Assembly (NCBI GenBank): GCA_947172415.1
Contig: OX359190.1
Coordinates: 3,038,001 to 3,102,000, forward strand
Source of the DNA: Chondrosia reniformis
Lineage: Eukaryota; Porifera; Demospongiae; Chondrillida; Chondrillidae
Direction of reading: 5' to 3'
DNA length: 64,000 nt
Shown here: positions 21,124 to 63,434 of the stretch, in pieces
Numbering within the stretch: position 1 is the stretch's first letter
How the letters are laid out: each line of letters opens with the position of its first letter
Notes under the pieces: generated by a model
The model's database searches: none
Told to the model about the DNA's origin: nothing
Seen by the model: the letters and a program-made list of their open reading frames with translations, nothing else
Position numbers and translations under genes: made by a program

Positions 21124-21403
21124 CATTATAGAGGTGGTCACATTAGAGAGGTGGTCACATTAGAGAGGTGGTCACATTAGAGAGGTAGTCACATTAGAGA
21201 GGTGGTCACATTAGAGAGGTGGTCACATTAGAAAGATGGTCACATTAGAGAGGTGGTCACATTAGAGAGGTGGTCACATTAGAGAGGTGGTCACATTAGA
21301 GAGGTGGTCACATTAGAGAGGTGGTCACATTAGAGAGGTGGTCACATTAGAGAGGTGGTCACATTAGAGAGGTGGTCACATTAGAGAGGTGGTCACATTT
21401 GAG
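21124..21403. repeat. 17-bp minisatellite array 3 (about 16 units)
   Basis: The most homogeneous array in the window; nearly every unit is GTCACATTAGAGAGGTG, which suggests recent expansion or homogenisation. Confidence 0.95.
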
Positions 21404-24000: not shown

Positions 24001-24170
24001 GGTCACATTAGAGAGGTGGTCACACTAGAGAGGTGGTCACATTAGAGAGGTGGTCACACTAGAGAGGTGGTCACATTAGAGAGGTGGTCACACTAGAGAG
24101 GTGGTCACATTAGAGAGGTGGTCACACTAGAGCGGTGGTCACACTAGAGAGGTGGTCACATTAGAGAGGT
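24001..24170. repeat. 17-bp minisatellite array 4 (10 units)
   Basis: CACATTAGA and CACACTAGA variants alternate almost strictly, suggesting a 34-bp higher-order unit. Confidence 0.9.
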
Positions 24171-30583: not shown

Positions 30584-33500
30584 CTGTGAAAACAATGATA
30601 TCCTAACACAAGGCACTATATACATAGTACTCAAGGTAGGTAAAATTTCACTAGAAAGAAATATCATTCTCCTCTAATAATTGTTTTAAACTATAGCTTA
30701 CCTCATTAGTTCATCTTTGCTTTGCCTTTCTAAAAATCAGATATTAATTGGAATTTATAACAGTTACTCAATTTACAACTTAAAACCTCTTGCAAAATAG
30801 CATTACAAAAGCTAACCTTCCAACACATCTAATGATCTCTTCATTTCTTCTAGAACAGAACCAAATCCTTCAACCTTTCCCAACATGTTACTCCTCAATT
30901 CTTCAGCTTGTTTTTCAGTTTTAGACTTCTCTTCTGTCAAAACTTTTAAGGAAGCTTCAAGAGAGCTCTACACAAGTAAACTTGAAAATATACATACAGT
31001 ATACACATACATACGTATGTATGTAAAATACACTATACATACTGTATTTTAAAAATGAATGAGTCGTACTAGTCAACAGCCAATACACTTTAATGCAACC
31101 TTGTGAATGTGAGATTTGAAAGACTTGTTTTGTCACATCCTGCACTGACTTAACTAGCATACTGATTTCTGACAAATGAGTATAACAGTTATATACTTAC
31201 GATAAAGGCCTGAGTGGCTAGGAAGATCCATGTCAAAGTTCGTGGAAACACTAGCCGAAAGTCACAACGATTTGTTCAAACGTTTCGGCTTCCTACGGAG
31301 GCCTTCGTCAGTGAATAATTAACAATTAAGGCAATGATGTATAAATACACGCTTGCAAGTAAACGTTGATGTGGTCACGTGAGGTACAGTGTTCATAAAG
31401 CAGTGAGTGGTGGGTAAAAAGGAAAAAAGAAAAGAAAACGGAAGTAATAGTAAAGAAGTACGCAAATAACGAAATGACAAACACAGAGCCTAGTCCTGGA
31501 GTGCTGCATAGAGTGCCTCTGTCTTGAGGCCACCTATCTCTCTTTCAGAGGCAAGATCTACCAGCAGGTGCATGGCACAGCCATGGGGTCACCAGTGTCA
31601 GTAGTGGTCGCCAACTTGGTGATGGAGGACATCGAACAGAAGGCACTGTCAACTTTCCATACTCCTCCACATTTCTGGAGACGGTACTTTGATGACACTT
31701 GTACTGTTCTCCCTGGAGACTTGGTTAACTCCTTTCACAGCCACCTCAACAGCATTGACAGCAACATTCAGTTCACGGTGGAGAAGGAGTCAGACGGGTA
31801 ACTCTCTTTCTTGGACATCCTCTTGATAAGGGAGGAGGGAGGCTCCATCAGCACCTCTGTTTACCGCAAGCCCACCCACACAGACCAATATTTGAATTTT
31901 GAATCTCATCATCCAGCGGCACACAAGAGAGCTGTCGTCAAGACACTGTTGCACAGGCCTGAAGCCCTCTCCTCGTCAGGAGTGAGCCAGGCTGAGGAGG
32001 AGAAGCACGTGACCTAGGCCCTCCAAAGGAACGGATATCCCACTAGCTTCATCCGAAGACACACTGTCCCACCCAAGTCCAGCCAAGTACCGGACAGCAG
32101 TGGATTGTGTGCAACGTTGACCCTCCTCTACCTCGGTGGTTTGTCAGAGTCCCTCCGCAGGGTACTGAGCCCGCTAGCCACCCAAGTCACTTTCAGTCCT
32201 TTTAGGACCTTGCGGTAAGAGTTGGTTCACCCCAAGGGACCCGGTCCCAATCAACTGCAGGAAGGGTGTGGTCTATAGCATCCCTAGCGCTGAGTGTCCC
32301 CGTGCATACAGCGGACAGACTGGGAGATCCTTGGACCATCGGTTGCAGGAACACTGTCGTGCTCTGAAGAAAGGGGATGTGGCTGCCTCAGCAGTTGCCA
32401 AAAACGCCTTCTCCTGCAACCACAAGGTGGACCTGTCCAAGGCATCAGTCATTGATGCACACCCCCACACTCAGACACGGTGCATGCTGGAGTCCTGGCA
32501 CATACAGCACCATCCTGCCTGCCTTAGCAGAGGGAAAGGCACCATGCCAGAACTCTATGCAGCACTCCAGGACTAGGCTCTGTGTTTGTCATTTCGTTAT
32601 TTGCGTACTTCTTTACTATTACTTCCGTTTTCTTTTCTTTTTTCCTTTTTACCCACCACTCACTTCTTTATGAACACTGTACCTCACGTGACCACATCAA
32701 CGTTTACTTGCAAGCGTGTATTTATACATCATTGCCTTAAGTGTTAATTATTCACTGATGAAGGCCTCCGTAGGAAGCCGAAACGTTTGAACAAATCGTT
32801 GTGACTTTCGGCTAGTGTTTCCACGAACTTTGACATGGATCTTCCTAGCCACTCAGGCCTTTATCGTAAGTATATAACTGTTATACTCAAAGAAATTGTT
32901 GTGACTTTCGGCTAGTGTTTCCGCGAACTTTGACACAGTTATATACTTGTGGTAATTTGTGACATATAGAGTGTAACCCGGAAAATCTGCCCCTGCTTAA
33001 TACACCAAACCACCTAATCCGCCTGAGTTTGTATAGAATGAATTCATTTGCATACTAAAAGTATCTACAAGAAATGTTAAAATATTAGAGACCATCTTTA
33101 AGATTTCTTTCGTACAATTAAAATCTTAACAAAAGCTGTGTGGATAACACCTTTACATGTGCAATTGAGGCGAGAAAATAATAGCGCTAGCATATCACTG
33201 ATTTCTCTTGGGAACACTTTAGATATGCATCCCTTTTTACAGGTGCTTAAGCATGCATATATATGTATATATAAATATATGCCTCAAGGTGTTTCTCATG
33301 TAGAGTAGGACATATAGGGGACTTTTAATTAGAAGTTTAGTATTAGCTATATCCAGAATGGAATTTAAAGCATTTCTTGTCTAAGGTCTGTAAGAACCAA
33401 TTATCACCCCGAGTACAGTAATAGTGAAATATTGCATTACCTTATCTTCTCTGAGTTTGGTGTTCTCCTCTTGTAACTCTGCAGTTTTGTCTATAACCTG

Positions 33501-36500: not shown

Positions 36501-39500
36501 TCCTCTTAATAAAATTTAAAGCAACATAACCATCTGCCTAATTAAGATCTATAGAGAGGTTTCGATTGTCATGTTTTCTAGCAATATGTGGACACCATAG
36601 GCTGTCTGCCATCTTGAGTGGCAAAAGGATTCGTGCATTGTGTGGCAGCAAAGAAGATTTTGTTGTGTGGAAAGAGGATGAATTGATTGTTTTGTGCATT
36701 AACAAAGATGAAGCGTTTCTCAGAAATGCCACTGAAAAAAACACTTACTTCTATTAGCGGGTTATTTTGTGAATGCTTGACTATATATACTTGCTGTGAT
36801 ACAGCTATTTACTAATTGCTGTGATACAACTATTACAATATACTAAAGGTTAATTGGGCTGTTTTTCTGGACAAAAAACCCCTGACCAGGTGAGGCAAGA
36901 CTGTCCCACTCAAATTGGGACCGTTGTACTGTCTACTTTATATATGAGACTGCTTCTAAATATGGCTGAAATAAGTAAAACATTATTCTAAAGAAATTCT
37001 ACCCATTAAGGGATATACTGTGCAAAAAAGACAGCTGTATACAGTTTCATCAGACTATACATAGTGGTTAGAGTCTTTAGATAAAATATACAATGTATGA
37101 CAATCTAAAATCATGATTACATCTATATTTCATTTAGTTAGGATCAATTACATGCTGAAAGTTTTTCAAAACAAATCTGCATGTAATGTAATGAAACATA
37201 GTTGAAACATAAAAGTATATATACGTATGTACGTACATGCATATTTCGGAAAATATGTACTATAACTTAACTTGTAACGTTAACTCTTGTCAATCAGAGC
37301 AGGATATAAGATGGTTTGGGTATTTGATTAATTGCTTGAAGACCTAGACTTACTAGTCATTACTAGTGGAAACAAGCTAATACTTACATTTGGGAGAGCA
37401 TTTATTGGACACATTCATATGACCAGGGTTCTCCCCAGAAGATTTTTGGAAGGCATTGGGGCTAATTAATTTTCCCATAAATGTTTAATGAAAGTGCCAA
37501 TATTTTGTACATCACTATTTTATTGATAATTGCACAATTACACATTGAATTACATAACGTTCACGGCCTTTGTGGCTATTCTTATAACAAAATAGTACGT
37601 ACGGGTACGGATCGACTATGGCTTACATAGGGTTCAAAGCACGGCTTTGAAAACTGGCTACCTGGGAGTTACATATGTTTCAAAGTACGGCTTAAAAACG
37701 GGCATGGGTACGGGCGTAGTACTGCCAGTTTTTATATAAAGGTATACCGTATTATATATAGACCAAGATGAAGGCATAGTGGCCAGCTAAACTGAAAGTG
37801 TCTAGGGAGAACACTGATGACAACCTTAATTTTGAGCAAACAAATCTTGTTAACACAGACACATGGTTTGTGTACAATAAGTACACAAGTAGAAAATAAA
37901 ACCTTCCAATGTATATATATATTTGGAATCATATATAAAGTGCACGCAAAGCACTCAATGAATGTTAACTTAAAATAGTGAATGTAATGTATATAATGAA
38001 TAAATATAAGTATACTAACCTCAACTACAATATTGTACTGCACAGCACTTGTCTGATATTCTCCTTCTCCTTTTCCTCCAAAAGTGAGAAAGGTTTTTTC
38101 ATTCAAGGAAGCTGAACAAGCATTGCCAAAAGATGTTACTTCACTTATTCGTGTCCATTTCGTATCATAAGTGAAGATTCCACTTGGACCTACTAGGACA
38201 GGTTGCATGCTCAGTGACAGAAGTGAACTGCTTTTTGGTGCATTCTCGAGCCTTTCCCACTCCTGTGCTACTGGCTTCAATGAGGTGAGAGAAGCCATAA
38301 AATCCATCTTATTCATTCTGTAAAAATATACATTAAAGTAGATGTAAATGTAATCACCACACAATGCCATTTGGTGGAGGGCTAATGGTCGAGGAAGTTT
38401 AAGATTTGACTGGATCCACTTTTTATTCTTAATATCAAGGAATTCCAATGTGTCTACACTTCTGCTGCTTCTTTCTGCTCCTTTTCCTCCAGACACAATC
38501 ACAAAGTGTTCAATTGCAAGTACACCTGGATAGTATCGGGCAGTGTGCATTGGAGGATACAGTTCTAGCCACACTTTGCCTGTCCATGTCAGTAGTTTTC
38601 TTGTAAGAGTGCCACGAATGTCCCTACCTCCTATTAGAGTTAGTTGCTTATCTATGATGGCAACTGCACTCAATGTATGTGATAACAGAGGTAGCTTTGA
38701 CCATTTTTTCTTTAGAATATTGTACTCCTGTACAATTTGTTGAGACACCCTTTCTTTACATGCTCCCCCGCAGACATATACTTTGTTACCGTGAGTAAGC
38801 GCTTTAGCAAAGCCTGTTCCAATTAGCATTTCCGGTAATTTTGTTGACTTGAGGAAAAGACCTCTTCCAGCTTTCAGGAGGTCACTGCAAAATACCTAAG
38901 TAGAGATAAGGAACAAAATAAACAAGTATTTCGAGTTTAAAAACTCGTGGGGTGCCAGACGCCCCATGCAAACTCGAACTACTTGCTGGTTCTTATTAGA
39001 TATCCGGTAACTGTTTCCAATTGTCCCTTGTATGCCATCAATTTTTCAAGGCCATACCTCGTAGAAACGTTTTGCGCAAGCTTTACATTATATAGTATTA
39101 GTAAAGTGCTTTCTACGTAAATCCTTTTTGTTCATTCAATGTTTGACACTAAGAAAAGGAAGCTAATTTTAAGCTAGAAAACTCCGCCATTTTGGTGACA
39201 GTTATAAATATACTAGGTAACAAATAGGAAGCCATACATTTCTGAAAACAATATAGGTGAGTCTATGTTGCCCCAAAAACTTGTGGGGCTGCCACCCCCA
39301 TGCACGATCGAATTGAATATACCTGTATGTAGTATTTTAAGTATTACATAATATACTAATCATTTACATAAGAGAAGACAAGCATGCATGAACTGTTAGG
39401 AAATTGGGCATAAATTATCAAGATATTCAAAACTCTGAAACATAAGCTGCTGCATGGACATGAGTCGATTTTATTTTTACAAGTAATTCTGCAAATTAAA

Positions 39501-41785: not shown

Positions 41786-43930
41786 CCATCATCTGTATTA
41801 GCATGCAGATCTATATATATATATACGTCCATGCAAACACTATATCTATTAGAAATGATATAAAAACCATGCAGCATCATGATAGTGGTACTTGCATATA
41901 TATGCATATATACATGATAATATACCACCTTAACCCTAATATTTGTTCTGACAAAATGAAGAACAATGATATTTGATCTTGGTGTGATATTATATATAGT
42001 GATCATGGGTTTCCAGGAACAACATATATCAGTTTATTTCAGGTCCTGCATGTGCTTGTGTGTAAGATTGGCATGTATATATATTTACCCTTTTTTGGCC
42101 ATTATTGGATCTGCATCATCATGGAAGTCAATGTATATGTATTAGCTCAAAAAATTGCTTATCACCACAGCCTTTACAAAGGTCATGTGCAATTAACTAT
42201 TTCAGTCAAAACTGTCTGTCACCATTTCTCATGATTTCTGATGATGCTGATGTGTGACACAGTATACACTCTAAAAGTACTTGTCCTGCTGATGTCTCTA
42301 AATGATGTCACTAACAATGAGATCAAGAAGAGTGGACAACTCAGAGCTCTTAATTAAAATACAGTTACTACAACCCTTGATGCATTCTCTAGTAATAATC
42401 TGATCAGATGATGTATATAGTGAAGGATATTGACTTTTTAATGTTACATCACTGCTTAACTTCACTACACCATCATACACACATACACTATATACTCTCT
42501 CCCATGCACTAAATATGTACAGACATCTCTATATATTTATAGCAATGGCCTGTCTACTGAATGTACCATGCATATGCATCTTCCTATACTATATATATTG
42601 TGAATTGGAATTCCTCAAGCTTTAGATCTTGAATTCCCCCAGGGGACTATTGTATTGTATATACCTCTTGTGGAGGTCACTTTGGTTGTGGACAATACTT
42701 AATGAGAAATGCAAGATGCAATGATTCGAGTTACTGAATTTGTCCTCAGTATACGAAGTTATGAAATGTCATTCCTGTACCCAATCACCACTAAATTTAC
42801 AGTAATAAGCATGCGCAATATGTGACATGATTACTAAAGAATTTGTACCCAGTATATTCACAAAGTTATGGAATGTTATTATTATGTCCTGCCACCAGTC
42901 ACTTTACAGTGATAAGCTACCTGTAGTTAATACTGAAAGGATTTACCAAAGAATTTGACCTACATTGTGATATTTACATTTTCATGTTGGTAAGTTTCAT
43001 TCTAGCCATCTAAGTAATAACAAGAAAATTTAGAGGAGAGCTAGGGTAAACATGACCTGAGACATGAATGAGAGATGCCATTTTAGTAGAGAGGTGGTCA
43101 CATTAGAGAGGTGGTCACACTAGAGAGGTGGTCACACTAGAGGGGTGATCATGTTAGAGAGGTGGTCACATTAGAGAGGTGGTCACACTAGAGAGGTGGT
43201 CACATTAGAGAGGTGGTCACATTAGAGAGGTGGTCACATTAGAGAGGTGGTCACATTAGAGAGGTGGTCATATTAAAGATGTGGTCACATGAGGTTGTCA
43301 CATTAGAGAGGTGGTCACACTAGAGAGGTGATCACATTAAAGAGGTGGTCACATTAGAGAGGTGGTCATGTACGGTCATATATAGTTACTGTGTAAGATA
43401 TTAAAGAACAAGGTAATTTCAAACCCTTCATGTACACACTTATTTAAAGAAAATGTATTTTAACATTTCTATTTGAATAACAATAGTGCAAAGTTACATT
43501 CACTTCCCAACAGACAATAAAGTATAAAAGAATGGTATGTGAGTGGTTGTACTGCAATGGAAGCAAGACTGTAGTCCAATAACAATGAACCCCTTTATTT
43601 ACACCTGTAAACTACCCTAACCCGGACACACCCTCATGCACATGGACACGCCCTCCTTTACCTTTACATAGACACACCCCTTCTAGCATTGACACACCCT
43701 CCTACACAAGGACACATCCCTAATACAGCTAGTTTATTGTCTTCACTATAGGTTATGGATGAATGGAGAGACAGAAAACAGAAAGTAGATTTCTTATCCA
43801 ACATTTAGTTTTCATGGTATATAACCACAAACATTGGCACACATACGTATGTACATTGGACTCAAAATGTGTGGATATATATATAATTGTAGATGTGTCT
43901 ATACTATATGGTGTGTGTGCCCATGAATGT
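41786..43930. repeat. Spacer repeat unit g (rearranged)
   Basis: Here the GCATGCAGATCT...TTTATTTCAGG block (41786-42235) comes first. It is followed by the AAATGATGTCACTAACAATGAG and CCCCAGGGGACTATTG blocks (42300-43080), a 17-bp array (43087-43371) and a CACCCTC remnant (43620-43720). No gene seen. Confidence 0.55.
43087..43371. repeat. 17-bp minisatellite array 6 (about 16 units)
   Basis: Same unit as the other arrays, with one shortened unit near 43290. Confidence 0.9.
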
Positions 43931-46320
43931 GAGTGATGTATAATGAAGTGAGGATCTGGATATTCTATTGACATAGACTCAACCTCCTCTCTAGCTCCCA
44001 TGCATTCTTAATATGTACAGGTATCTCTATCAATATTAATAGCAGTGGGATGTCTATTGAATGACATTGTACCATGCATGAAAAATCTAATACACCATTT
44101 TCCTACATGCTGTGCCTATAAAACCTGGATAGAGCTTTGGATGAAGATACAGGGAGTCTTTTCTGTGAAATTCTTCTTTTCCTCTCTTTCATCTTCTTCT
44201 CTACTGGGTCAGACAGCTGTTTCTGGGAATTCCACCCTTCATCCAGTGATATCCTGGGAGTCTTTGTCTTTATCTTTATCTTGATATTATGCCCCTTGTT
44301 AGTATATAGTCAAACAGTTGTCACACTGTGTTTGCTTGGAATTCAAAGACCATTTAAGCTGTACTATTATTATAATTATTATTATTAATATTTATATTAC
44401 AGTCTCACATGCACAATATCTATTATTATATTCAGATGACATATATACTTCATCAGAAATCAAAGCTGCATGAGAATTCTAAAGAACCAAGAATATGAGG
44501 TGTTAAGTGGATATTCTACTGTATTAGACAGACAATTATACTAATGAGGTGGTCACATTATAGAAGTGGTCACATTATAGAGGTGACCACATTATAGAAG
44601 TGGTCACATTATAGAGGTGACCACATTAGAGAGGTGGTCACACTAGAGAGGTGACCACATTAGAGAGGTGGTCACGCAAGAGAGGTGGTTGCATTAGAGA
44701 AGTGGTCAAAAGGTGGTCACATTAGCGAGATGGTCACATATTCTATGCATGAATGTATAAGATTCTAATGAACAAGGTGATTTCAAACCTTTATGTACAC
44801 ACTATTTAAGCAAGCGAAGAAAATAAATTTCAATAGTTACAGTTTTGTAAGGTACTGAGGGAGGAGGTGTTGTTTGAATAACAACTGTACTAGTGCAAAG
44901 TTGCATTAACCTCACAACGGACATGCAAGATAAAAATATTAAAGAATGGAATGTGTGACTGGTGACAATATTCTACTGATTTATAACTAGTGAGACATGA
45001 TTGAAGGACTCTAACTGACAGACCCTCAGCCCCACCCCTCTTCCTTGGTCAGCTTTTGTTGGGGATCACTCGACTGGGGGCAGTAAGGAGAGATCCTTTT
45101 AAATGTAAATTTTGGGGATTTGTGTGGATGGACACACCCCTAGGCCTTCTCCAAGGAAATCTATGTATTAAACCAACAATGAGAACATATACGTATATAC
45201 TTACCTTTGAGAGAGTAATGTGATTGAGAGCTCCTGATTATGAGACTGTTTGAACTGGACTCCATCGTCTGTAATAAAGATCTAGTTATATATATACGTC
45301 TATACAAACACTATCTATATAGATATAAGTAATAGAATTAAAGAAATATAATGAACATTCAGCCTCATGAAAATAGTACTTGCTTATGCATACATGCATG
45401 ATAATATACCACCTTAACCCTAATGTCTGTTCTCAAAATGAATGTATATTGTTTTACTTTCAACCTTTTAAACTGACAAGATTTACAAAATAATTTGTAC
45501 TCAGTACAATACACAAAGTTATGGAATGATAATGTCCTACCACCGGTCACTACTTAACACTGAGAGGATTTACCAAAGAATTTGTCCCACATTAATTTAC
45601 ATTTTGTTTGTAAGTTTCCTTCTAGCCATCTCTTAAGTAACAAGAAACTTCAGAGGTATATACGTAGCTGGGTAAATAGGATCAAGTGCAATTAACTCAC
45701 TTACTTCATATATTAGCAAATACTGTCCAATCATTTCTCATGATCAGTCAATGAAAAATCTAAGATACCATTTTCCTACGTGCTATGCCTATTCTGTAAA
45801 AGAGCCTATAGGGGAAATAAACCTGAATGTCAGTCAACACTGAGAGGATTTACTATAGAATTTGTCTTAGTACACAAATTAAAGTTATGGAATTTCATTA
45901 ATTTATCTAGTCACCAGTCACTTTAGTAACCTGTTAAACTGACAAGATTTATGAAAGAATTTGTACTGGATATATACACTAAGCTGTGGTATGTATCACT
46001 AGACAATATTGCATGAGAAATATTTTATGACTTGGTGGGTGAACAGTTTCCATAATTGAATTGACTATATACGTGGAATCATGCCTAATATCACACGTAC
46101 TGAAAGGTATAAAGAAAGTATATAGTGAATTAACTTATGCAATCTCAATTACATGTATATACGTACATATTGTGCGAAGTGGAATTGTAAGTTATTGTAA
46201 GAATGTATTTGTGATGGATTTGTTTCTGTAATGTTCTTGTCTTTTCTACTTGTTAGTTAAAAGACTTTCTATAAGTAGCTCTCTCTTGTACCTCTGTGTC
46301 AGAAGGGATGAGATTAACAA
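43931..46320. repeat. Spacer repeat unit h, abutting the 3' end of gene 4
   Basis: A partial GAAGTGAGGATCTGG block, then a stretch at 44050-44285 not seen in the other units, a 17-bp array (44545-44740), the CCCCACCCCTCTTCC block (45030) and the TGACTTGGTGGG block (45900-46310). No gene seen. Confidence 0.55.
44545..44740. repeat. 17-bp minisatellite array 7 (about 11 units)
   Basis: Mixed GTGGTCACATTATAGAG and GTGACCACATTAGAGAG units. Confidence 0.85.
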
Positions 46321-49700: not shown

Positions 49701-51937
49701 CTTGAAACTGCTATATTCATCCTTTAAGTTAGTGAGTTCATCCTTCAAGCTAGTGTCTTTCTTGTCTTGCTCCTTCAAGCTAGTGTCTTTCTTGTCTTGC
49801 TCCTTCAAGCTAGCGTCTTTCTTGTCTTGCTCCTTCAAGCTAGCGTCTTTCTTGTTTTGCTCCTTCAAGCTAGTACCTTCCACCTATCCAATAAGAAGTA
49901 CATTTTTGTAAGAGTTGGTATATAGTGCTCTACTTAAAGTGTTAAGTGTTAACCTGGAACTATTTTTGACAAACTAAGTTAAATCTACTTAATTTCAAAC
50001 AAAAATCGTGGCTTAATTATTACTAAATATCTATAAAAGTGCCACCTTGTCACACAATGTATAATAAAGTGTTAGTAATTTAGCAACCAAACTGTACTCA
50101 AACAATGAAAATTGAAAAAAGCATTTTCAGTTCAAGAATTATTAAACAACTATGTATAATGGATAATACCTGGAATTCTATCCTCTATATCTCAAATGCA
50201 AAGAGCAGGAAAACTAAAGTCTTTGTTCGTGGAAAATAATGACTCGTGAGAGTTTGTTGGACACATTCGTATTACAACCTTAACTTAGAGCAAACAAGTC
50301 TTGTAAACACTAGTGTGTGTAGTGTGTACAAGTTAGGAAATCCATCAAGCCTTAATTCCAATGTTTATATTTATGAATTAATGCACCCAATTAATATTAA
50401 TAGACTTGTAATAATGTAATTAGTGTAACACTTTGTTACTAACTTCAACTATATCAAACTGTACAGCACTTGTCTGATGTTTCCCTTTTCCTTTTCCCCC
50501 AAATATGAGAAAGGTTTTTTCATTTAAGGAAGCTGTACAAGCATGGTCATAAGATGTTACTTCACTAATTTGTGTCCATTTCTTCTCGTAAGTGAAGATT
50601 CCACTTGGACCTACTAGGAGAGGTTGCTTGCTCAGTGATAAAAGTGAACTGTAGTTTGGTGCTTTCTCGAGCCTTTCCCACTCCTGCACTACTGGCTTCA
50701 ATGAGGTGAGAGAAGCCATAAAATCCTTCTTATTCATTCTCCAAAATCCATTGGTCGAGTGGTAAATGTAAATGTATTCACCACATAAAGCCGTGTGGTG
50801 TAGTGATACTGGTCGAGGAAGTTTAAGATTTGACTGGATCCACTTTCTATTCTTAATATCGAGGAATTCAATTGTGTCTACATCTGCGTTGCCATTTCCT
50901 CCTCCTACTCCCCCAGACACAATTACAAAGTCTTCAATTGCAAGTACACCTGGATAGAATCGGGCAGTGTGCATTGGAGGATACAGCTCTTGCCACTCTT
51001 TGCCTGTCCATGTCATTAGCTTGTTAGTAAGATGGTGACTAGTGTCCCAACCTCCTATTAGAGTTAACTGCTCTTCTACTATGGCTGCTCCACTCGAAGT
51101 ATGTAAAGGAGGTAGTTTTGACCATTCCTTCTTTAAAGCATTGTACACCTGTACAATCTGTTCAAGGGACCTATCTTCACATGCTCCCCCGCAGACATAT
51201 ATTTTGTTATTGTGTGGAATTGCTTTAGCAAAGGATGTTCCAAATTGCATTTCCTGCAATTGAATTAACTTAAGGAGATGACCTCCTTCGGCTTTCAGGA
51301 GGTCACTACGAAATACCTAATTAAAAACAAGAGAGGAATATTTACTGATCATGATTGAAGCCTTCAAGGGTAACTTGGTAAAAAATAGCACACATCGATT
51401 TTTGATATACAGCAGTTTATTTCAAGAAACATTAATTTGAGTTGCAGTCCAAATCATGCATGTCTGTTTGTCTCAAGTTCAACTTAACAGATTCTGAATA
51501 AATGTAACACTTTTATTGTCTATTTAAGGTGATTATGCATTCTTCCAAACATTCTTCCTTGTACAAGATAATACATACTTAGGTTGTATTTAAAAAGAAT
51601 GACTATCTAAGTATGGACCCAACTGCAACGCATATTATCTTAGCTACACAGCATTCTAAATATTGAATCCGGGCAAGGGTCTCTGAAAACGTGACTGTTT
51701 TAGAACTCACAGGACAGTAAAACGTTTTTCGGATACTTATAATTCTTTACCAGGCAATTTACAAGAGGAAAGCGGAGCTCTTACTAGAAAATGGCTTTTT
51801 ATTTTAAGAGGAATATTTTATTTTATTTAATTAATACCCGCTAACTTATAGACGGTACACGAATTTTCGGATGATATATAACGCCCACTTATTCAGGATT
51901 AGCAAGACAAGAATACACTCACTATATCTTTGTCCAT
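46446..51937 (-). CDS. Kelch/coiled-coil/Death-domain gene 4, frameshifted before the Death domain
   Basis: Eleven exons collinear with gene 2: 51923-51937, 50444-51316 (Kelch, 291 codons), 49701-49883 (four decapeptide repeats), 49518-49634, 48787-48852, 48543-48722, 48319-48465, 48055-48135, 46957-47127, 46869-46896 and 46446-46752. Exon 46957-47127 is 171 nt where gene 2 has 172. A base is missing at the T-run 47064-47069 (minus-strand GAAAAAATAAAACC against GAAAAAGCTAAAACC), which leads to TGA at 47035-47037. As written the protein would be about 584 residues and lack the Death domain, although the Death exon downstream is well preserved. The loss lies beside a homopolymer, so a sequencing error is possible. 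Otherwise this copy is a young pseudogene or a decoy form. Confidence 0.8.
49296..49360. repeat. Hairpin element in gene 4 intron 4
   Basis: Arms 49296-49313 and 49343-49360 (GATGGTTCATCTTTTGAC and its perfect inverse), with a 29-nt loop. Counterpart of 17159-17201. Confidence 0.8.
49701..49883 (-). repeat. Gene 4 exon 3: 30-bp coding minisatellite, 4 copies
   Basis: V-E-G-T, then four SLKEQDKKD(A/T) units (the first with N for D), then the conserved L-K-D-E-L-T-N-L-K-D-E-Y tail. Confidence 0.85.
50444..51316 (-). CDS. Gene 4 exon 2: Kelch propeller
   Basis: 291-codon phase-0 exon with blades at KIYVCGG, LTLIGG, FVIVSGG and FLIFGG. It ends GAA before the GTTAGT donor, where the paralogs have GAG. 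Confidence 0.85.
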
Positions 51938-52400: not shown

Positions 52401-52547
52401 AAATTAGATACCCTACATGGATTGTTGTTTTTATATATAGCGAGTTATTATTATGTGGAGCTGTTTTATATATATTCCGTTGGACCTTTGGACAAAGATA
52501 CTCTAAAAGTACGTACTTGCCCTGCTGATGATCCTCCTTGGAATTTT

Positions 52548-53400
52548 CGGTAGATGGCACATGTACAGAGTACTGAAATGATTACGCAATAAACTATATA
52601 ACATATATACTATATAATATAATATAATATAATATAATATAATATAATATATATACTATATAATATTTATAGTATATTATATAGTATATATGACAGCATG
52701 GAGCAGATCAGCAGGACAGCAGACCAGCAGGACAGCAGACCAGTAGGACAGTAGGACAGCAGGACAGCAGACCAGTAGGACAGCAGGACAGCAGACCAGT
52801 AGGACAGCAGGACAGCAGACCAGTAGGACAGCAGGACAGCAGACCAGTAGGACAGTAGGACAGCAGACCAGCAGGACAGCAGGACAGCAGGACAGCAGAC
52901 CAGTAGGACAGCAGGACAGTAGGACAGTAGGACAGCAGGACAGCAGACCAGTAGGACAGCAGGACAGCAGACCAGTAGGACAGCAGGACAGCAGGACAGC
53001 AGACCAGTAGGACAGCGGGACAGCAGACCAGTAGGACAGCAGACCAGTAGGACAGCAGGACAGCAGGACAGTAGGACAGCAGGACAGCAGACCAGTAGGA
53101 CAGCAGGACAGCAGACCAGTAGGACAGCAGGACAGCAGGACAGCAGACCAGTAGGACAGTGGGACAGCAGACCAGTAGGACAGCCAGGACAGCAGGACAG
53201 CAGACCAGTAGGACAATGCTATACCAGAAAGCAGTGATATTAGCGTAAGTAGATGCAGATATATATATACATATATTATATTGTATATAATCATTACGGT
53301 ATAATTACATAATTAGTACTCTGTACATGTACATGCATGTGCCATCTCCCAGCAAGTTATCATGAAATGGCCCTCTTTTTTAATTAAAATGATACAATAC
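52548..53400 (+). repeat. Left terminal inverted repeat of the transposon (about 853 bp)
   Basis: Tip, AT-rich TATATAAT tract, a minisatellite of GGACAGCAGACCAGTA units (about 52705-53215), then an inner segment ending GATACAATAC. An inverted copy of the tip motif (AGTACTCTGTACATG...TGTGCCATCT) lies at about 53314-53348, so the array is itself bracketed by the tip sequence. Confidence 0.88.
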
Positions 53401-53474
53401 TTAATCAAAAATTGGAATAGTGATAATAAAGTAATCTAGCTTACATGCATGTATACGCAGTATAATTCCAGTAA

Positions 53475-56400
53475 TTATAAAAGTACTTTACTAAAGTCCT
53501 TTAATGTATGCATGGAGTAGTTGATTAACTTCTTTATCTCGCTGGGGCTTCTTTTAGGCATCAATATGCCAATACCGATTGTGTCTGCAATATCTTTAGC
53601 AGCCTGTGTCTCTGATATTGCCATCTCCACGTCCACTTCATCTGATCCTGTAAACTTTTCTAAAATTGCTGCCATAACCACAACCTCAAAATCCGTCCAT
53701 GGACCAACCCTGGGTGTTTCACCTACCTCTTCCATGAAGAACTGCACCTTCTTGCCTTTGAGGTCATGCTCCTGATGAACATATTTAATCCTTCTCCTCT
53801 TTGCTGCTGGCTTTGTTGCTTTCCCATATTCGTTTTGGCAGTCCTTGCACTTGCAGGTTGTATTGCATGGTTTGGCAGCCTTGTAGCAGGGACATCTAGT
53901 GGCATACTGTTTTCCAGATATGCAAGCCTTGCTGGTGCCACCTTTATTACGGCCACATGTACAGGACAGGGGCTTTAAGGGTTGCAGAGGTGTACTTGGT
54001 GCAGTGATGTCTACTTCCTCCTCCAGCTGATCAATACTGTAAGAATGCATGACTGCATCATAATGTCCACCACCATACTGTGTCAAGGCTAAGTAAATTG
54101 GCTCTTCTGTAGCAGCTGTTGCATAGCTTGGCATAATTGTAGTCAATGGAAAGTTTGCTGCTGATGTAAATAGAACAATGGGAATCCGCAAGGCATTGGC
54201 CAAAGCTGTTACCACCAGATCCCCCATCTCACCACAGTAATTTCCCCTCTCAAGAAACCGAGGAGCCTCTGTAATAATTTCCTCAGAGGTGAGGAAACTC
54301 TGATATTCTGCAGAATTTGGCCCTGTCCATTCATATACCATTGCCTGACGTAGTTGTTTTATGAATTGATCTTCAGCTTCTGCAGCAGTGTTGCAACCAG
54401 TGGTGTACCTTTGAACAAGATTTATAGCATGGGCATTGCCAAACTCTGCCAACTGTCTCAACGAAAAAGCTACAGAGTGGAAAAGACAGTCTCCATCTCC
54501 ATCCACGAATTTCCTCTTCATTTGCCATGAGGTCAGGGTGTTGTTCAATCGCTCTTGATGTTCTTGGTACTCTGTGTCAGAATTGGAGAAGGTGTCCGGC
54601 ATAACCATAAAAATATTATCTGCATGCCTTTGCAGAAGTGGTATCAAGCGAATATCAAGTTGAGCCATGTTACTCTTTTTCTTCAATTCCATATGTACTT
54701 TAATCCAGAGGATGGCCTTCATTAGACTTGTCCTGACTGTAAAGATGTCCACTGATCCGCTGGATACTTCAGTGTCTTCATCAATGTCCCTCAATTCATA
54801 ATCAGATTCTTCACATTCTCCAGTTATGCTAGGTAAATCAACCTGTACATAGTTTTAGGAACTTGTTAATCACTCGGCATGTACATTATACGTATTAAAC
54901 TTGCCTGGAAGTGTTGTAGTATTTCACTATAGGTAGATTTAGTAATATCCAGGTTTACACCAGAAGACTGATCATGATCTTGACAAAGGACAGATGGGAC
55001 AGATTGTGATGTATGAAAGAGTAGCCCAAAATGTTCATCTGTTAGTGGCTCTTCCACACGAGAATCACTGGCCACCTCTTCAATGATGCGTACTCTTCCC
55101 TTTTCAGAATGAGCATGCTGTCTCTCATTGTGTTGAAAAAAACAGGTAGTCAGCAAAGCATAAGCTAATTCTACACCATACCTGCATAGACATAAATTAC
55201 ATTGGTCATTTGTATCTATATGTGTACTATATAATTAGAAATGTTTGTTTTATAAACATTCTATATATACCTCGATGTCTTCATGATTGCATTAATATTG
55301 CGGTGTAAGTTTTCATTCCTATTTGTCCCTCTTCCCGGCTTGATACCTGTAAATATGTGTGTATTACAGGTTACAAATTATCATAATAATGTAATTGTAA
55401 TTAATTAAATATTACGCATGAACTACTTTTACTTTATAGAATAACTATTTATTGCACACCTGATAAGCATCCCTTCTCCATGTGCACTTGTATATTTGTT
55501 ATCTCTTTCAATGCAGCCTTTGAAAGGACTTTAACACCTTTGCTGGAAACTTTGTTTTCCCATCTGACCCGGAAATCCTGAAGCTGTTTCACTAAGATGT
55601 CTGCCATAACCATGTAAGTATGTTATCATAACTTCTATATATATACATGTGTATATTTAACCTACCTGGAGATGGAGTAGCAAGGTGTCTCACAGCACCC
55701 CTGTCAGCAGGATGTCTAAAAACCATCCTAAGTTCTTCCATACATGCTGAGTGAAGTTCGTGACGTTTAGGGATCTTCTCTCCAACACGTTTTACTGCAT
55801 GGAAAATGTCAAGGAGTACTGTCAGCCCAGGTCCAAAGACACTTTGCAACTTTGCTCTCCATGCACAGCAGTTATCAATGTAAAATTCTTTTACATTAAC
55901 ACCCTGAGCAATCAACCGATCACTAAGACCAACTAGCAGTGCTTCCACAGTGGAAAACATCACGTTTGGCGTAAGTCTCCAGGTTACAATCTGTCCTTGG
56001 TCATTTAGTACACAAAAGAGTGCATTGTACTGATTGATCCACTTTCTGTCTGCATCCCTAGAGATTCCAATATTCCCTGAGTAAAGAAAATTCAGTGACT
56101 TTTGGTGTACAGTATAGTACTTACAAATCAGTTGTCATTTTCACTTACTGACTGATGCAAAGGTATGATCGCAACAGAGCCAACCATCTGTTTTTGACAC
56201 AGTAGTCTTCTTCATCTCAGTAACATATAAATGTTCATGTTTCCAGAATCCGGTCAAGAATATATTTGAGATGGAATGTCTTGATGGAGTCAACTCTGTA
56301 CCAAACAGGTCTTCAAATTGATTTACAGTAAGAAAAGGCATTTCTGGAGCATTAAGATAAGTGTGTATCTTATGATACATATTCTTAAATCGAAAGTACA

Positions 56401-56992
56401 TCTTGTATCTATTATTCTCCAGTGTGTTGGCAATAGCACTTATGCTAATACCAGCAAGAACCAGTGACTGAACTAGTTCAAGCAAGTTGTGAGTAAAGCC
56501 AGTTCTGTGCCATAGAGCAAAAGGTATAACCTCCTGTAGAGGAACTTGACTCAATATGTTTGGATGATAGCCAAGAACTTCATGTCCTTTCGGACATCTG
56601 TAAACTCTAGATATTACAATAATGGGGCCATCCACGCCATGTATTTTCCTTGGTGTAGATTGTGGGTTACTCCCATCTTGCCATCTAGCTGGTCTCAATG
56701 TCATCTGCAAATCAATTAAGTTGCTGGTGCACTTAGGACAAGTGTAATCTGAGGGATACTGCTCAACTGGTGACCACAGTATACAAGGTGGCATTACAAA
56801 TGTTATGGGGCAGCTGTAAGGCTGACCATCTGATGGCAATACATTGATAGAGGTAGATAGATACTGAGAATTACCACCAAATTCTTCTAAAAGATTTCTA
56901 ATCCTTCTACACCATTCCTTTGGAAAAACCACGCTTTCAGTTGTAAGAAGTAGATGACCAATGACAAACAAAAGGTAAACTGATTTCTTCAT
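53475..56992 (-). CDS. Transposase: zinc ribbon + DDE + OTU protease + CXC cluster, 1038 residues
   Basis: Six exons in one open frame: 56149-56992, 55666-56076, 55460-55600, 55271-55346, 54905-55181 and 53475-54842. The fifth intron begins GC (GCAAGT); the others are GT-AG. Residues 85-137 form a CPKC...CPKGH zinc-ribbon-like motif. A DDE/RNase-H-like core is suggested by D275 (C-C-D-H-T), D349 (Y-I-D-N-C-C-A-W) and E477 (G-T-N-R-N-E-N-L-H). An OTU cysteine protease follows with D-G-D-G-D-C (Cys702) and G-G-G-H-Y-D (His843). A cysteine cluster, C-T-C-G...C-P-C...C-K-C-K-D-C (about 877-919), resembles CXC/Tesmin DNA-binding modules. The hydrophobic first 20 residues (MKKSVYLLFVIGHLLL) are odd for a nuclear protein, so the true start could lie in an unseen upstream exon. 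The catalytic residues are assigned by eye. Confidence 0.82.
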
Positions 56993-57985
56993 CTTTCACT
57001 ATCTTGAAGTTTTTTCTAGTATTAATTTTGTTATTATATACATATTTTAAATGTGTGATTATGAATGTTTTGATGTGTCCTTTTTAACACAATTCCTTGT
57101 AAATAGGTGGCTATTATATTCTGAATAGCCTGACTGTTACTGTGGATGTGTCCTTTTTAACACAATATAGGTGGCTATATTCTGAATAGCCTGACTGTTA
57201 CTGTGGATGTGTCCCTTTTAACACTTTGTTTGGTGAACATTATATGTGCCATCTGCCAACATTATAAGTCTATACACTTTTTAGAGCATGCCTACAAACC
57301 TATTCCATCATGCTAGTTTGAGTCAAAGTTCTTTTATGAATTCTGTACTGGTTTGTTGGATTAGGTATGAATGGTATAGATCTTCCTTGACTGAATGAAT
57401 CCTGTATATATATATACGATGTACTTAAAATAAATTATTATAATAAAATAAAATTTGCCCTATATCTTTCACCATATATTATATACACATTATACGTATG
57501 TTGGGATTTTATGTACATTTAATTTGGTGCATGCTGGAATATAGATTATACTTCCACAATCCAATGCAAATTACATGTTACAATATATTAAAGATGATTT
57601 GGACCATCCTTACCCAATCTTACAACCCAGTATATGCAAGTTCTTTGATGAACTTCAACTGCATAATGCATGGTAAGACAGGGTTTCATGGCCATAAAAT
57701 TCAGCAGTACATAAGGTGTAATACATGATGTAACATTTACATACAACCGTACATTACAATGTAGGGTTCTATACATTCTTGATTATATAACTGGGACCAC
57801 TGTTAGCCAATTGCAATGGCTAAGAGGCTCCCCAAATAATACTTATTGAATTGAATTGATAATTGTGCTAATAACATATCAAAGTGTTGAAACCTTGGCA
57901 ACTGTCAGTTTTCTCTATAAAAGCAACCTACAGTGGAATTAGCCTCATTTGCTAAGGTTGTAGGATACTGTATAAACTGACTAGA
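56993..57985. promoter_or_regulatory. Divergent intergenic region of the transposon
   Basis: Separates the two divergent genes and should hold both promoters. It contains three tandem copies starting at 57072, 57145 and 57206 of a GATGTGTCC-TTTTAACAC unit, about 60-73 bp apart, with GGTGGCTAT.ATTCTGAATAGCC between. No other gene is supported. Confidence 0.5.
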
Positions 57986-59870
57986 ATGGCTTCCTTTACC
58001 CCATCATCGAAGAGAAAAAAGATGCAGTTTCCTGGTCAAACGTACCTATCAAAGGAGGCAGCTACCAAGTTTTCTAAAACAGCTAATGATATTCCCTTTC
58101 CTTGGAAGGAGGTGATGCCAGTGGAAATCTATAATTGGCTAGAAACACTAGCCAAGGCACACAATACAAAGGAGGAATTTATATTTATTGGGATGTTAGC
58201 TGCCACAGCAGCTATAATGGGCCCATTAGCTCATGTCAAGGTCAGAGAAACTTACCAGGAACCAATGAGCCTATTCCTCATTTGTATTGCTGATCCTGGC
58301 TCTGGAAAGTCCCAAGGATTTAGCCTGTCTGTTCGGCAGCCACTCTGCAACCTGGTGCTGGAAGAGAAGCGAGAAATGATAGTAGATGACTACACCAGAC
58401 AAGGCTTATTTAAGCACTTAGCTAACCGCAATGGCCATGCTCTAGTTGCACAGGAGGAAATGACAGCCTTCTTTGATCTACTACAGAGGAGGCAGATGGA
58501 AGGACAAGGAGAACGTCAATTGTATTGCCGCTTCTATGATGGAGGAGACTGGATTAAGAGTACAGGTGAGTATATTTGCTACTAGAGGAAAATAATAAGT
58601 ATACTTTTCTAAGACTTGCAAACATGTATATTCACAGGCTCACAGAAAGCAGTTGCAAATAGAGAAAGGGTGCCAAATTCTTGCGTTTGTATGTGTGGAT
58701 TCCTACAGCCAGCTCCTTTTGTACAAAAGATTTATCCAACACTGTACAGTTGTCATGATGGCTTTGTGGATCGTCTCTTGCTCTGTACACCGAAACCTCA
58801 TTTACTGCAAGAAGCAGAGGTTGAAGAATGGGCTGCAAAGCTGCAGACTTCAGTCCTAAAGACCTTGGGGCCAGTCTATGAAATCATAGAGAGATGGCAC
58901 TTCAGTGAGCAGCTGTATGAATTGAGCAAGGAGGCCAGAGCTGTATACATTGAATTTGCCGATGAACTCACCAAAGCCATGAATAGCAAGTGGGATGACA
59001 CTGAAGGGCCTTCCTCACAAATCGGAAACGTATCAAAAGATAGACGGGTAATGATTAGGTAAGTATATAGACAGTTTAGAAAGAATGCATTTTTATAGTA
59101 TGTAATATACTCACCTCAATTCAATCCAATTCTAGATTGTCAGGCATACTGCATGTCTTATACCTGGCATTGGATGCAGCATTGAATTCTAGATTGTCGG
59201 ATGACACCTCCGGTCACAGCAACATAATATCAGAAGAAACAGCTCAAATGGCCCTGAGTTTGACTAATTATTTTCAAGCACAAAGAGCAGTTTATGAGCA
59301 AGTGAGTTGTGATTAGTCAATATTATAAACTTGCATTTTTAAACTGCATTACACACATACATCCATGTTTATACTCTTCTATGTATTCTATCTGTATAGG
59401 CTATGGTACAGTGTATTGACAAAGATGAAACAGACCCACAGCCTGCAAAGCGTGAATTGACAATCGAAAAAGTCATTACACACATTCTAACTCGACCAGG
59501 GCCGCTTACAACTCCTCGGGACTGTTATAAAACAGTTACCTTTTCTGAAAGGACCTTTGCCTCACAAAAGGTCAAGGGTCTTTTCAGTCAACTACAAACT
59601 GAGGGCCTGGGACATTTCCACCAGCAGGGAAAAGAAATATGTTATTTCAAACCTTTACCTACAGAAGTAAACAAAAGAAAAATTACAGAGAAGCTGGCAA
59701 GTCCAAATATATCCCATGAAGAAGCATGGGACAAGTATGTGTCTACTTACTTAAAGATTGATGAGGCACAGATCACCCAGTCTCAAATGACAAGGTTTTT
59801 ACGCTGTGCTCCTAAAAAAGATGAGCTGAAAAACTATTTTCCTCAACATTCCGCTTTGTTTGAGGATTAG
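57986..59870 (+). CDS. DUF3987-like P-loop protein of the transposon, 545 residues
   Basis: Four exons in one open frame: 57986-58565, 58638-59058, 59136-59301 and 59400-59870 (TAG stop), all GT-AG. A Walker A motif, A-D-P-G-S-G-K-S, lies at residues 102-109 after a hydrophobic strand. A Walker-B-like L-V-A-Q-E-E-M lies near 153-159 and a conserved-looking C-H-D-G-F-V-D-R-L-L-L after it. The order (N-terminal helical region, A-P-G-S-G-K-S-like P loop, acidic D/E-E, G-F-x-x-R-x-L) matches my recollection of DUF3987 proteins, usually found in phages, plasmids and Bacteroidetes and often tied to primase/helicase functions. The C-terminal region (about 400-480) looks winged-helix-like. Role in transposition is inferred from linkage. 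Confidence 0.75.
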
Positions 59871-60027
59871 CTACTCTCCTGCACATCTACAAGACTGTGC
59901 TGCTACAAGCTGAACATATAGAACTTATAACCAATTATTTTAATTAATTTTATTATTGTAACCATTTTAATTATTGTATCATTTTAATTAAAAAAGATGG
60001 CCATTTCATAATAACTTGCTGGGAGAC

Positions 60028-60912
60028 GTATTGTATCATTTTAATTAAAAAAGATGGCCATTTTATGATAACTTGCTGGGAGACGGCACATGCATGTACA
60101 TGTACAGAGTACTGATTATGTAATTATACCGTAATGATATACAATATGTATATATCTGCATCTACTTACGCTAATATCACTGCTTTCTGGTATAGCATTG
60201 TCCTACTGGTCTGCTGTCCTGCTGTCCTGCTGTTCTACTGGTCTGCTGTCCTACTGTCCTACTGGTCTGCTGTCCTGCTGTCCTACTGGTCTGCTGTCCT
60301 GCTGTCCTACTGGTCTGCTGTCCTACTGGTCTGCTGCCCTGCTGTCCTGCTGTCCTACTGGTCTGCTGTCCTGCTGTCCTGCTGTCCTGCTGTCCTACTG
60401 GTCTGCTGTCCTGCTGTCCTACTGGTCTGCTGTCCTACTGGTCTGCTGTCCTGCTGTCCTGCTGTCCTACTGTCCTGCTGTCCTACTGGTCTGCTGTCCT
60501 GCTGTCCTGCTGTCCTGCTGTCCTGCTGTCCTACTGGTCTGCTGTCCTACTGGTCTGCTGTCCTGCTGTCCTGCTGTCCTACTGGTCTGCTGTCCTGCTG
60601 TCCTGCTGTCCTACTGGTCTGCTGTCCTACTGTCCTACTGGTCTGCTGTCCTGCTGTCCTGCTGTCCTACTGGTCTGCTGTCCTACTGTCCTACTGTCCT
60701 ACTGTCCTACTGTCCTGCTGTCCTACTGGTCTGCTGCCCTGCTGTCCTGCTGTCCTGCTGATCTGCTCCATGCTGTCATATATACTATATAATATACTAT
60801 ATAATATAATATTATATAGTACATATACTATATTATATTATATTATATAGTATATATGTTTTATAGTATATTGCGTAATCATTTCAGTACTCTGTACATG
60901 TGCCATCTGCCG
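60028..60912 (-). repeat. Right terminal inverted repeat of the transposon (about 885 bp)
   Basis: Inverse of the left repeat with a longer minisatellite (about 60200-60760). A 55-bp piece containing AGATGGCCATTT and TAACTTGCTGGGAGAC is duplicated just inside (59974-60086). The long Leu/Ser/Cys-rich open frames here are products of the repeat, not genes. Confidence 0.88.
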
Positions 60913-63434
60913 AATTTTCTACCTCTGTCAATTAGAGAAGTCAGTGATGATACTTTTAGATTTGTTTTAAAGTAACACTACTTGACCATGGTTGACTAAT
61001 TGAATTTTTTGTGTCTTCAATTTATAAATTATAATAATTTAGAACCTGTGTCCTTGTTTTTGTTTTTGCTTTATGTATTTCATGTCAGGTCCCCCATTTA
61101 TACCAGCCTTGGGCTGAAGGGGTAACCTTAGTAATAACAATAACAATGTCTCCAAATGATGTCACTAACAAAGAGATCAAGAAAAGTGGACAACCCAGAG
61201 CTCTTAAATAAAATACAGTTCCTAAAACCCTTGATGCATTCTCTAGTAATAATCTGATCACTGCAGGTGATGTATTATGGTGAAGTGAGGATATTCTATT
61301 GACTTTTTTAATGTCACATAACTGCTTCACTTCACTAAGCCATCATACTCACATACACTATATAGACTCAACCTCCCCTGTCCCATACACTCTTAATATG
61401 TATATACATCATTATTAATACCAATTGTCTACATGCATACACATATCTTTCTATACTCATATTAACTATATTGTGAATTAGAATCTGGATTAACTCTTCT
61501 AGCTATATACATATATATAAGAATCAGATCAGATCTTGAAATCCCCTAGGGGACTATTGTATTGTATATACCTCTTGTGGAGGTCACTTTGGTTGAGGAC
61601 AATACGTAATGAGAATTGCATGGCGCAAAGGTTTGAGTTAGATTTGTACCCAGTATATATTAAAGTTATGGAATGTTATTAATATGTCCTGCCACCAGTC
61701 ACTTTACAGTGGTCACATTAGAGAGGTGATCACTTTAGAGAGGTGGTCACACTAGAGAGGTGGTCACATTAGAGAGGTGGTCATAGTAGAGAGGTGGTCA
61801 CACTAGAGAGGTGGTCACACTAGAGAGGTGGTCACATTAGAGAGGTGGTCACATTAGAGAGGTGGTCACATTAGAGAGGTGGTCACATTAGAGAGGTGGT
61901 CACACTAGAGAGGTGGTCACATTAGAGAGGTGGTCACACTAGAGAGGTGGTCACATTAGAGAGGTGGTCACATTAGAGAGGTGGTCACACTAGAGAAGTG
62001 GTCACATTAGAGAGGTGGTCATAGTAGAGAGGTGATCGCATTAGAAAGGTGGTCACACTAGAGAGGTGGTCACATTAGAAAGGTGGTCACATTTGAGTGG
62101 TTATAACATTAAAGAGTTAAAGATTCACATGCATGATCATAGTTACTAAGTGAAGTGTAAGATATTAAAGAACAAGGTAATTTCAAACCCTTCATGTAGA
62201 CTACACACTTATTTAAATAAGTGAAGAAAATGTATTTTAATGTAGTGACATTTCTGTTAGGTACTGAGGGAGGAGATGTTGTTTGAATAACAACAGTGCA
62301 AAGATACATTCACCTCACAACAGACAATAAAGTATAAAAGAATGGAATGTGAGTGATTACACAATAACAAATGGAAGATTGCACATTTAAATGAATTTCT
62401 TCTTCATGAATCGAATGTTTGAGGCTAATGGATATAGTGATACAACAAAATCTAGTTATTCTGCATTCCAGGAATGGCAAATTTAGGTAAATAAATCTTT
62501 AGGTTTTAAAGAGATTTTCTTTACTTTTAACAAAGCCCTTTATGGAGATCATGCATACTTACAACATTATAGATCTTAACTGCGTTATATGTAGTTTGCA
62601 GTAGATAGTTTGTAGTTATAATTAAATCCTATAATTGTCCATGGTTGCATAGTATGTTCCAATGACACTGCGGAGACATTATGTACTCTAAAATAAATGA
62701 GCATTCCAATCACTTCCTGTTAAATACATATCAACTTAGGTAGGCTCTCCAATGAATGTACCATTGTTATATACACACATTTAACTACACTCTTTTCTAT
62801 TAGACACTAGCAAGTTTGGTGTATTCACTTCTTGTGAAAGTCATTTTGACTGATGACAATATTCTACTGATTTATAACTAGTGAGACATGACTGAAGGAT
62901 TCCAATTGACACACCCTCAGCCCCAGTCAGGAGATCACTTGACTGGGGTACAGAGAGAACATTTAAATGTTGTGAGTGGACTCAGCTTCACACCTCTTTC
63001 CAGATGGACACACCCCTAGCTTCCAAAAAGGACACACACCTACGGGCCTTTCTCCAAGGAAATCTAAGTAGTTAACCAATATTGAGAAGAGAGTAATTTG
63101 ATTGAGAGCTCAATTAAGATTATGAGACTGTTTGAACTTCATCATCTGTAGTAGCAGATCTATACATACGTCTATGCAAACTATCTATAAATGAACAGCC
63201 TCATGATAGTGATACCGGTAATATACCACCTTAACCCTAATGTCTGTTATGACGGAATGAAGAACACAGTAATATATTATCATTTTATATGCGTATGATA
63301 TGTATGGTATCTAGTGATCATGGGTCACCAGTACCAACATATTATCGGTTTATTTCAGGTCCTGCATGTGCTTCTGTGGAAGATCAGCATGTATATCTTT
63401 TTTGACCATTATTGGATCATGGAAGTCAATGTAT
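60913..63434. repeat. Spacer repeat unit i, near-identical to 5660-7560
   Basis: Continues the segment interrupted by the transposon and matches the spacer right of gene 1 almost base for base to about 62720 (one 11-bp difference near 61100). It then switches to the version found at 7815-7975, followed by the CACACCCTCAGCCCC (62915) and GTCTGTTATGACGG (63240) blocks. No gene seen. Confidence 0.75.
61711..62094. repeat. 17-bp minisatellite array 8 (about 22 units)
   Basis: Order of CACATTAGA, CACACTAGA and CATAGTAGA variants largely parallels array 1 (6455-6828), confirming common descent of the two segments. Confidence 0.92.

Follow-up and report, generated by a model that had tools for sequence, protein, structure and literature searches.

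A putative autonomous DNA transposon of Chondrosia reniformis carrying a transposase-like OTU-CXC protein and a DUF3987 ATPase gene

Mutator-like elements (MULEs) often have terminal inverted repeats (TIRs) of hundreds of base pairs, target duplications of 8-11 bp and, in several cases, extra open reading frames (ORFs) (PMC6446971). The MULE groups vary: some are without TIRs, and zinc fingers of several kinds occur, with none in some groups. IS256 is a distant prokaryotic relative of the MULEs (PMC6446971). Ginger1, an element of invertebrates, has a Gypsy-integrase-like DDE transposase, whose C-terminal part holds an OTU (or Ulp1) domain (PMC2836005). The DUF3987 family, which is known from plasmids and phages, is predicted to be a helicase and also occurs in primase-helicases (PMC5862659). 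Here, we describe an element that spans positions 52549-60911 of a 64-kb stretch of Chondrosia reniformis contig OX359190.1; this whole stretch is called the window. Two predicted genes with open spliced frames lie between its inverted ends, which are flanked by a target duplication. Gene 1 encodes an OTU domain and a CXC cysteine cluster, and gene 2 encodes a DUF3987 ATPase; the key motif residues are present. With moderate confidence, the element is read as a cut-and-paste DNA transposon that is, or until recently was, autonomous, and whose transposase would be a divergent DDE enzyme of the Mutator/IS256 type.

The element has the build of a MULE and probably also functions like a MULE, without being called one. 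Its 8-bp duplication falls within the range of 8-11 bp, its TIRs are 852 and 884 bp long, and it has a second ORF; a weaker agreement lies in the catalytic motifs, where gene 1 has D-D-H-TNxxE residues with a spacing roughly similar to that of IS256. In contrast to the MULEs, gene 1 has no Pfam MULE or Transposase_mut match, the OTU and CXC domains are fused to it, and the second gene is of the DUF3987 family. No Mutator profile matches the element, and therefore MULE membership is not claimed. An earlier, sequence-only reading of this DNA could not place the arrangement in any named superfamily. The lack of a Pfam transposase match agrees with that view, whereas the motif pattern, the 8-bp duplication and the long TIRs point to the Mutator/IS256 side.

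Target duplication and terminal inverted repeats

The word GAATTTTC forms an exact 8-bp direct repeat directly outside both ends, and the element limits were set as above because this repeat directly adjoins them. The sequence-only reading had reported an apparently intact transposon at 52548-60912. The element was confirmed, with matching inverted ends, an exact duplication and two stop-free spliced frames; the limits were one base off at each end. The word GAATTTTC occurs six times in the window, both flanking copies counted. The two ends open with GGTAGATGGCACATGTACAGAGTACTG and GGCAGATGGCACATGTACAGAGTACTG. The first 43 bp of the tips (GGTAGATGG and GGCAGATGG) have their sole mismatch at position 3, and the next one follows at position 44. 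A 38-bp core of the tip has two exact matches in the window, one on each strand (mean 0.00 in 100 shuffles).

The left TIR and the reversed right TIR agree at 86.7% over 905 columns in a BLAST alignment that begins 3 bp beyond the ends. Most of each TIR consists of a minisatellite with a unit of about 24 bp. Tandem repeats with periods of 24 and 56 were found by TRF at 52709-53215 in the left TIR. When the arrays are excluded, the outer parts of the TIRs show 139 matches, 7 mismatches and 13 gap columns, and the inner parts show 176 matches, 5 mismatches and 16 gap columns. A 57-bp unit was also observed, with two copies at the inner edge of the right TIR (59972-60085) and one copy in the left TIR (95% over 60 bp at 53345-53404).

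A minisatellite beside the TIR is also known from Rehavkus, which is grouped with the MULEs. In Rehavkus, the target duplication is 9 bp long, the TIRs measure 26-400 bp, a PHD finger is present, and the minisatellite precedes the 3' TIR (PMC6446971). In the present element, however, the duplication is 8 bp, the TIRs are 852-884 bp, both TIRs contain minisatellites, and no PHD match was found in Pfam. The name Rehavkus was rejected for the duplication length and the missing PHD match.

An inverted partial copy of the tip, ACATGTACAGAGTACT, is found near the inner end of each TIR, with 16 bp exact at 53315-53330 and 60098-60113. Each TIR thus resembles a small non-autonomous element. The locus might then be a composite, in which two separate non-autonomous elements flank host genes, or a dead copy, in which the frames have survived by chance. 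We consider both very improbable. The composite was rejected because the exact target duplication encloses the element in full; visual inspection of the inner flanks showed no matching duplication around a single TIR. Against a dead copy, both joined frames are free of stop codons.

Gene 1 and its putative DDE core

The sequence-only reading had described clean splice sites and full frames. Both joined frames were recovered at full length (Table 1), with the qualification that one of the five introns of gene 1 (54904-54843) is GC-AG and the other four are GT-AG. The stop-free runs of gene 1 reach 459 and 284 codons; in 300 first-order Markov sequences with 53401-60027 as their model, no run was longer than 180. 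An additional 5' exon is possible. The two genes are divergent and are transcribed outward from a centre of about 1 kb.

We take the first half of gene 1 to be a highly divergent DDE transposase of the Mutator/IS256 type, with support at the motif level. In NCBIfam, gene 1 residues 1-583 gave a single match, the IS256 transposase (E 0.004), at residues 334-413, which covers the second D and the subsequent H. Nine IS256 proteins taken from plasmids were aligned as a yardstick, and this alignment has 20 invariant columns. The invariant D161, D227, H250, T329, N330 and E333 of IS256, six of the 20 columns, have plausible equivalents in D275, D349, H374, T473, N474 and E477 of gene 1. The spacings are also similar (gene 1 versus IS256): 74 versus 66 residues for D-D, 25 versus 23 for D-H, and 128 versus 106 for D-E. 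A spaced D-D-H-TNxxE pattern, which was written post hoc from the viewed alignment, is present in gene 1 and in all nine IS256 proteins; when residues 236-540 were shuffled 20000 times, 145 of the shuffles also had it. When the whole gene 1 protein was aligned by hhalign, residues 331-438 fell on columns 215-308 of IS256. For the cut piece (residues 236-540), the score was 25.3, which exceeds all of 200 shuffles (best 23.25); the reversed piece reached 19.6, and the remaining controls, gene 2 and other stretches of gene 1, scored 14.5-21.5. The DDE reading draws on the motif and on weak profile evidence, which coincide in position. The DDE label of the sequence-only reading is supported by these two lines of evidence, and has no Pfam transposase match behind it.

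Besides the post hoc origin of the pattern, several results weigh against this assignment. The NCBIfam score was 16.2 bits, with a cut-off of 150. Among the other 14 invariant columns of IS256, at least G231, Q245 and C247 are replaced in gene 1, by A353, L369 and D371. The hhalign probability was 1.8% for the whole protein and 3.5% for the cut piece, and with a HMMER profile of the nine IS256 sequences the top eight places were taken by shuffled copies and not by gene 1. No Pfam transposase, MULE and Transposase_mut included, matched whole gene 1 up to E 1, and none matched its pieces up to E 10 within the HMMER filters, which discard most matches above about E 0.1. Single-sequence AlphaFold models of exons 1-2 (the input read through intron 1) and of the OTU part had pLDDT values of 34.6 and 38.8, and were unusable. 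One copy of the element was examined, and no further copy was found within the window.

The first two pieces of gene 1 matched only zf-HIT (E 0.8), zf_C2H2_10 (E 0.99) and DUF7418 (E 0.15) in Pfam. The two non-significant zinc finger matches sit in the N-terminal piece; SWIM and CCHC were not matched significantly.

The transposase might belong to another superfamily with 8-bp duplications (hAT, P or Zisupton/KDZ), with its IS256 likeness due to convergence or chance. The C/D(2)H motif is common to several superfamilies. Duplications of 8 bp are made by Zisupton and, in most cases, by hAT (PMC12730594), and the IS256 match of gene 1 is weak. However, no KDZ, hAT or P-element profile matched the gene 1 pieces up to E 10 within the same filters, the TNxxE motif and the D-to-H spacing agree with IS256, and TIRs of hundreds of base pairs are common among Mutator-like elements (PMC6446971). 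This alternative is considered distinctly unlikely. The element resembles Zisupton/KDZ in the 8-bp duplication and in a cysteine cluster, which KDZ proteins also bear, and differs from it in that no KDZ/CxC profile matches, and in that the CXC of gene 1 is of the Tesmin/MSL2 type. KDZ was rejected on the absence of PF18758, a profile known to be within the set used, from the Pfam matches of gene 1. The CMCT superfamilies (EnSpm, Plavaka and Transib) have C(2)C between the second D and the E, and duplications of 2-5 bp (PMC12730594). These were also rejected: there is no CxxC between D349 and E477, and the duplication is 8 bp.

The presence of OTU and CXC domains on the putative transposase protein, as proposed earlier, was borne out. 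The OTU profile PF02338 matched the cut piece with 26.9 bits (E 7.7e-6; cut-off 23.3) and the whole protein with 23.0 bits, slightly below the cut-off. The catalytic Cys and His are found in DGDGDC (C702) and GGGHYD (H843). The CXC profiles PF16682 (MSL2-CXC; E 0.0013, 19.3 bits) and PF03638 (TCR; E 0.023, 15.4 bits) scored below their cut-offs of 26.7 and 23.5, respectively. The full Tesmin-type cysteine spacing CxCx6Cx3CxCx2CxN is present, and was found in 0 of 20000 shuffles. In the Pfam search that the sequence-only reading had proposed for both proteins, DUF3987 and, on the cut piece, OTU lie over the cut-offs, CXC lies under them, and a transposase is missing.

The fusion of OTU to a transposase is already known in kind from Ginger1, where the OTU also lies C-terminal to the DDE transposase (here a putative one); OTU is also found in some Helitrons, and a role of the ubiquitin pathway in transposition has been suggested (PMC2836005). 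Ginger1 was rejected as a family name, since gene 1 gave no match to an integrase profile in Pfam. A second ATPase gene is not described for Ginger1 in the accessible part of PMC2836005. The combination of a transposase-OTU protein with a helicase-like gene is unusual, though not wholly unprecedented.

The DUF3987 gene and the proposed mechanism

Gene 2 is a clear DUF3987 P-loop ATPase (PF13148; E 1.3e-33, 117.1 bits, cut-off 27), which confirms the earlier proposal that such a gene lies between the same ends. In PHROGs, it matched phrog_2373 'DNA helicase' at 3.6e-20 and 'DNA primase' at 7e-9. The better of the two plasmid records that match gene 2 is the cyanobacterial protein BAY50683.1 (Scytonema; tblastn E 4e-3), which itself matches DUF3987 at 2.9e-34. 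These proteins share the ATPase domain, with 25% identity in a two-sequence alignment. The presumed Walker B is EE in gene 2 and DE in BAY50683.1, and the P-loop is GSGKS in gene 2 versus a variant GDMKS in the plasmid protein. BAY50683.1 also has about 360 residues before the DUF3987 domain, which are primase-like in our reading, although DUF3987 was its only Pfam match at E 0.01; gene 2 is without these residues and has introns. No primase domain was found in gene 2 in Pfam, and its C-terminal 164 residues have no Pfam match up to E 10. The earlier description as primase/helicase-like is therefore restricted to a helicase-like ATPase. The family is predicted to be a helicase because it takes the place of known helicases beside primases in mobile elements (PMC5862659). 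Gene 2 would be an ATP-driven helper and, as judged from its family, most likely a helicase.

DUF3987 might also be a captured passenger that has no role in movement, with gene 1 alone being sufficient. Mutator-like elements are prone to take up host gene fragments (PMC6446971), and a single copy of the present element was seen. However, the frame of gene 2 is open across four exons, it encodes Walker A and, where Walker B is presumed, an acidic pair, and the gene is set divergently to gene 1 around the centre of about 1 kb. A passenger is possible, though rather unlikely.

For an autonomous cut-and-paste transposon, the following mechanism may be proposed from the predicted domains. The gene 1 protein would bind to the long TIRs at their tips and cleave them there via an RNase H-like D-D-E core, and integration would generate the 8-bp duplication. 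The CXC cluster might contribute DNA binding. The fused OTU domain could deubiquitinate either the transposase itself or, at the site of excision, host proteins of repair or silencing. The DUF3987 ATPase may have an accessory role as a helicase or DNA remodeller, which, for example, opens the long minisatellite-filled inverted ends or aids a replication-coupled gain of copies. A bolder proposal, which we put forward tentatively and consider unlikely, is that the element represents a new eukaryotic superfamily, distantly related to IS256/Mutator. The plasmid/phage-type DUF3987 helicase would then be an obligate partner of the transposase-OTU-CXC protein, and movement might be helicase-aided at the long ends or partly replicative.

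Relatives were sought in IMG/VR, prokaryote genome contigs and phages. None of these is a eukaryote genome collection as such, and therefore the absence of relatives says little. Peptide patterns from gene 1 residues 1-512 gave no match in IMG/VR, and seven pattern matches in prokaryote genome contigs, none of which was confirmed. Gene 2 gave one pattern match in IMG/VR, which was not confirmed. The two-row alignment of gene 2 and the plasmid protein gave 97 and 62 pattern matches in IMG/VR and prokaryote contigs, respectively, with none confirmed. The exact 24-bp tip was absent from IMG/VR. Two degenerate motif patterns gave 0 and 1 match in IMG/VR, and the single match (L001) was rejected as chance by tblastn. 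No phage matched gene 1 residues 1-583 or gene 2 by tblastn up to E 1, and a PDB sequence search with both proteins gave nothing up to E 1.

A family or superfamily with the identical gene pair may already have been filed in Repbase or published. Repbase and most subscription journals lie beyond the literature searched. Within that literature, however, no work combining three of transposase, OTU, CXC domain and DUF3987 was found, nor was a DUF3987 gene in a eukaryotic cut-and-paste transposon, and the works that combine DUF3987 with a transposon are prokaryotic by their titles and abstracts. An earlier description is thus a serious possibility, though we lean against it.

If the pair is conserved, the element would be a cut-and-paste transposon with its own helicase-like ATPase and a deubiquitinase domain on its transposase. 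It would allow direct tests that ubiquitin removal aids transposition or repair, an idea raised in PMC2836005, and that replication enzymes can be enlisted by DDE elements in eukaryotes. A plasmid/phage gene family would also be recorded inside a eukaryotic mobile element.

Table 1. Positions of the element's features in the window
Feature	Position	Strand	Description
Target duplication, left copy GAATTTTC	52541-52548		identical to 60912-60919
Left long TIR	52549-53400	+	852 bp; 43-bp tip, AT-rich part, ~24-bp minisatellite, inner flank
Gene 1 (predicted)	53475-56992	-	six exons, 1038 aa, joined open frame
Gene 1 exons	56992-56149, 56076-55666, 55600-55460, 55346-55271, 55181-54905, 54842-53475	-	
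CXC cysteine cluster	53823-53966	-	gene 1 residues 876-923; nine cysteines; Tesmin/MSL2 type
OTU cysteine protease domain	54060-54500	-	gene 1 residues 698-844; PF02338
Putative DDE core	55312-56170	-	D275, D349, H374, TN..E477
E477 (TNxxE)	55314-55312	-	gene 1 exon 4
H374	55801-55799	-	gene 1 exon 2
D349	55876-55874	-	gene 1 exon 2
D275	56170-56168	-	gene 1 exon 1
Central intergenic region	56993-57985		~1 kb; ~61-bp direct repeats within 57072-57224
Gene 2 (predicted)	57986-59870	+	four exons, 545 aa, DUF3987 P-loop ATPase
Gene 2 exons	57986-58565, 58638-59058, 59136-59301, 59400-59870	+	three GT-AG introns
Walker A ADPGSGKS	58289-58312	+	gene 2 residues 102-109
Right long TIR	60028-60911	-	884 bp; minisatellite (periods 24 and 32) at 60211-60767
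Target duplication, right copy GAATTTTC	60912-60919		identical to 52541-52548

Neighbourhood of the element

Four similar Kelch-repeat open frames were identified by Pfam on the minus strand of the window, at 3567-4433, 18152-19057, 37735-38895 and 50423-51316. They form a local gene family, which the transposon adjoins. Near some of them, there are tandem-repeat frames with a coiled-coil look by eye. A 17-bp minisatellite, GTGGTCACATTAGAGAG, occurs in separate arrays at 6455-6843, 10306-10481, 21124-21407, 24000-24185, 24857-24912, 28486-29154, 43087-43368, 44546-44739 and 61709-62116. At 32178-32573 on the plus strand, there is a weak match to the GIY-YIG nuclease (E 0.0064, under the cut-off), and from its resemblance we presume that this fragment might be left over from a retroelement, Penelope-like or of another kind.

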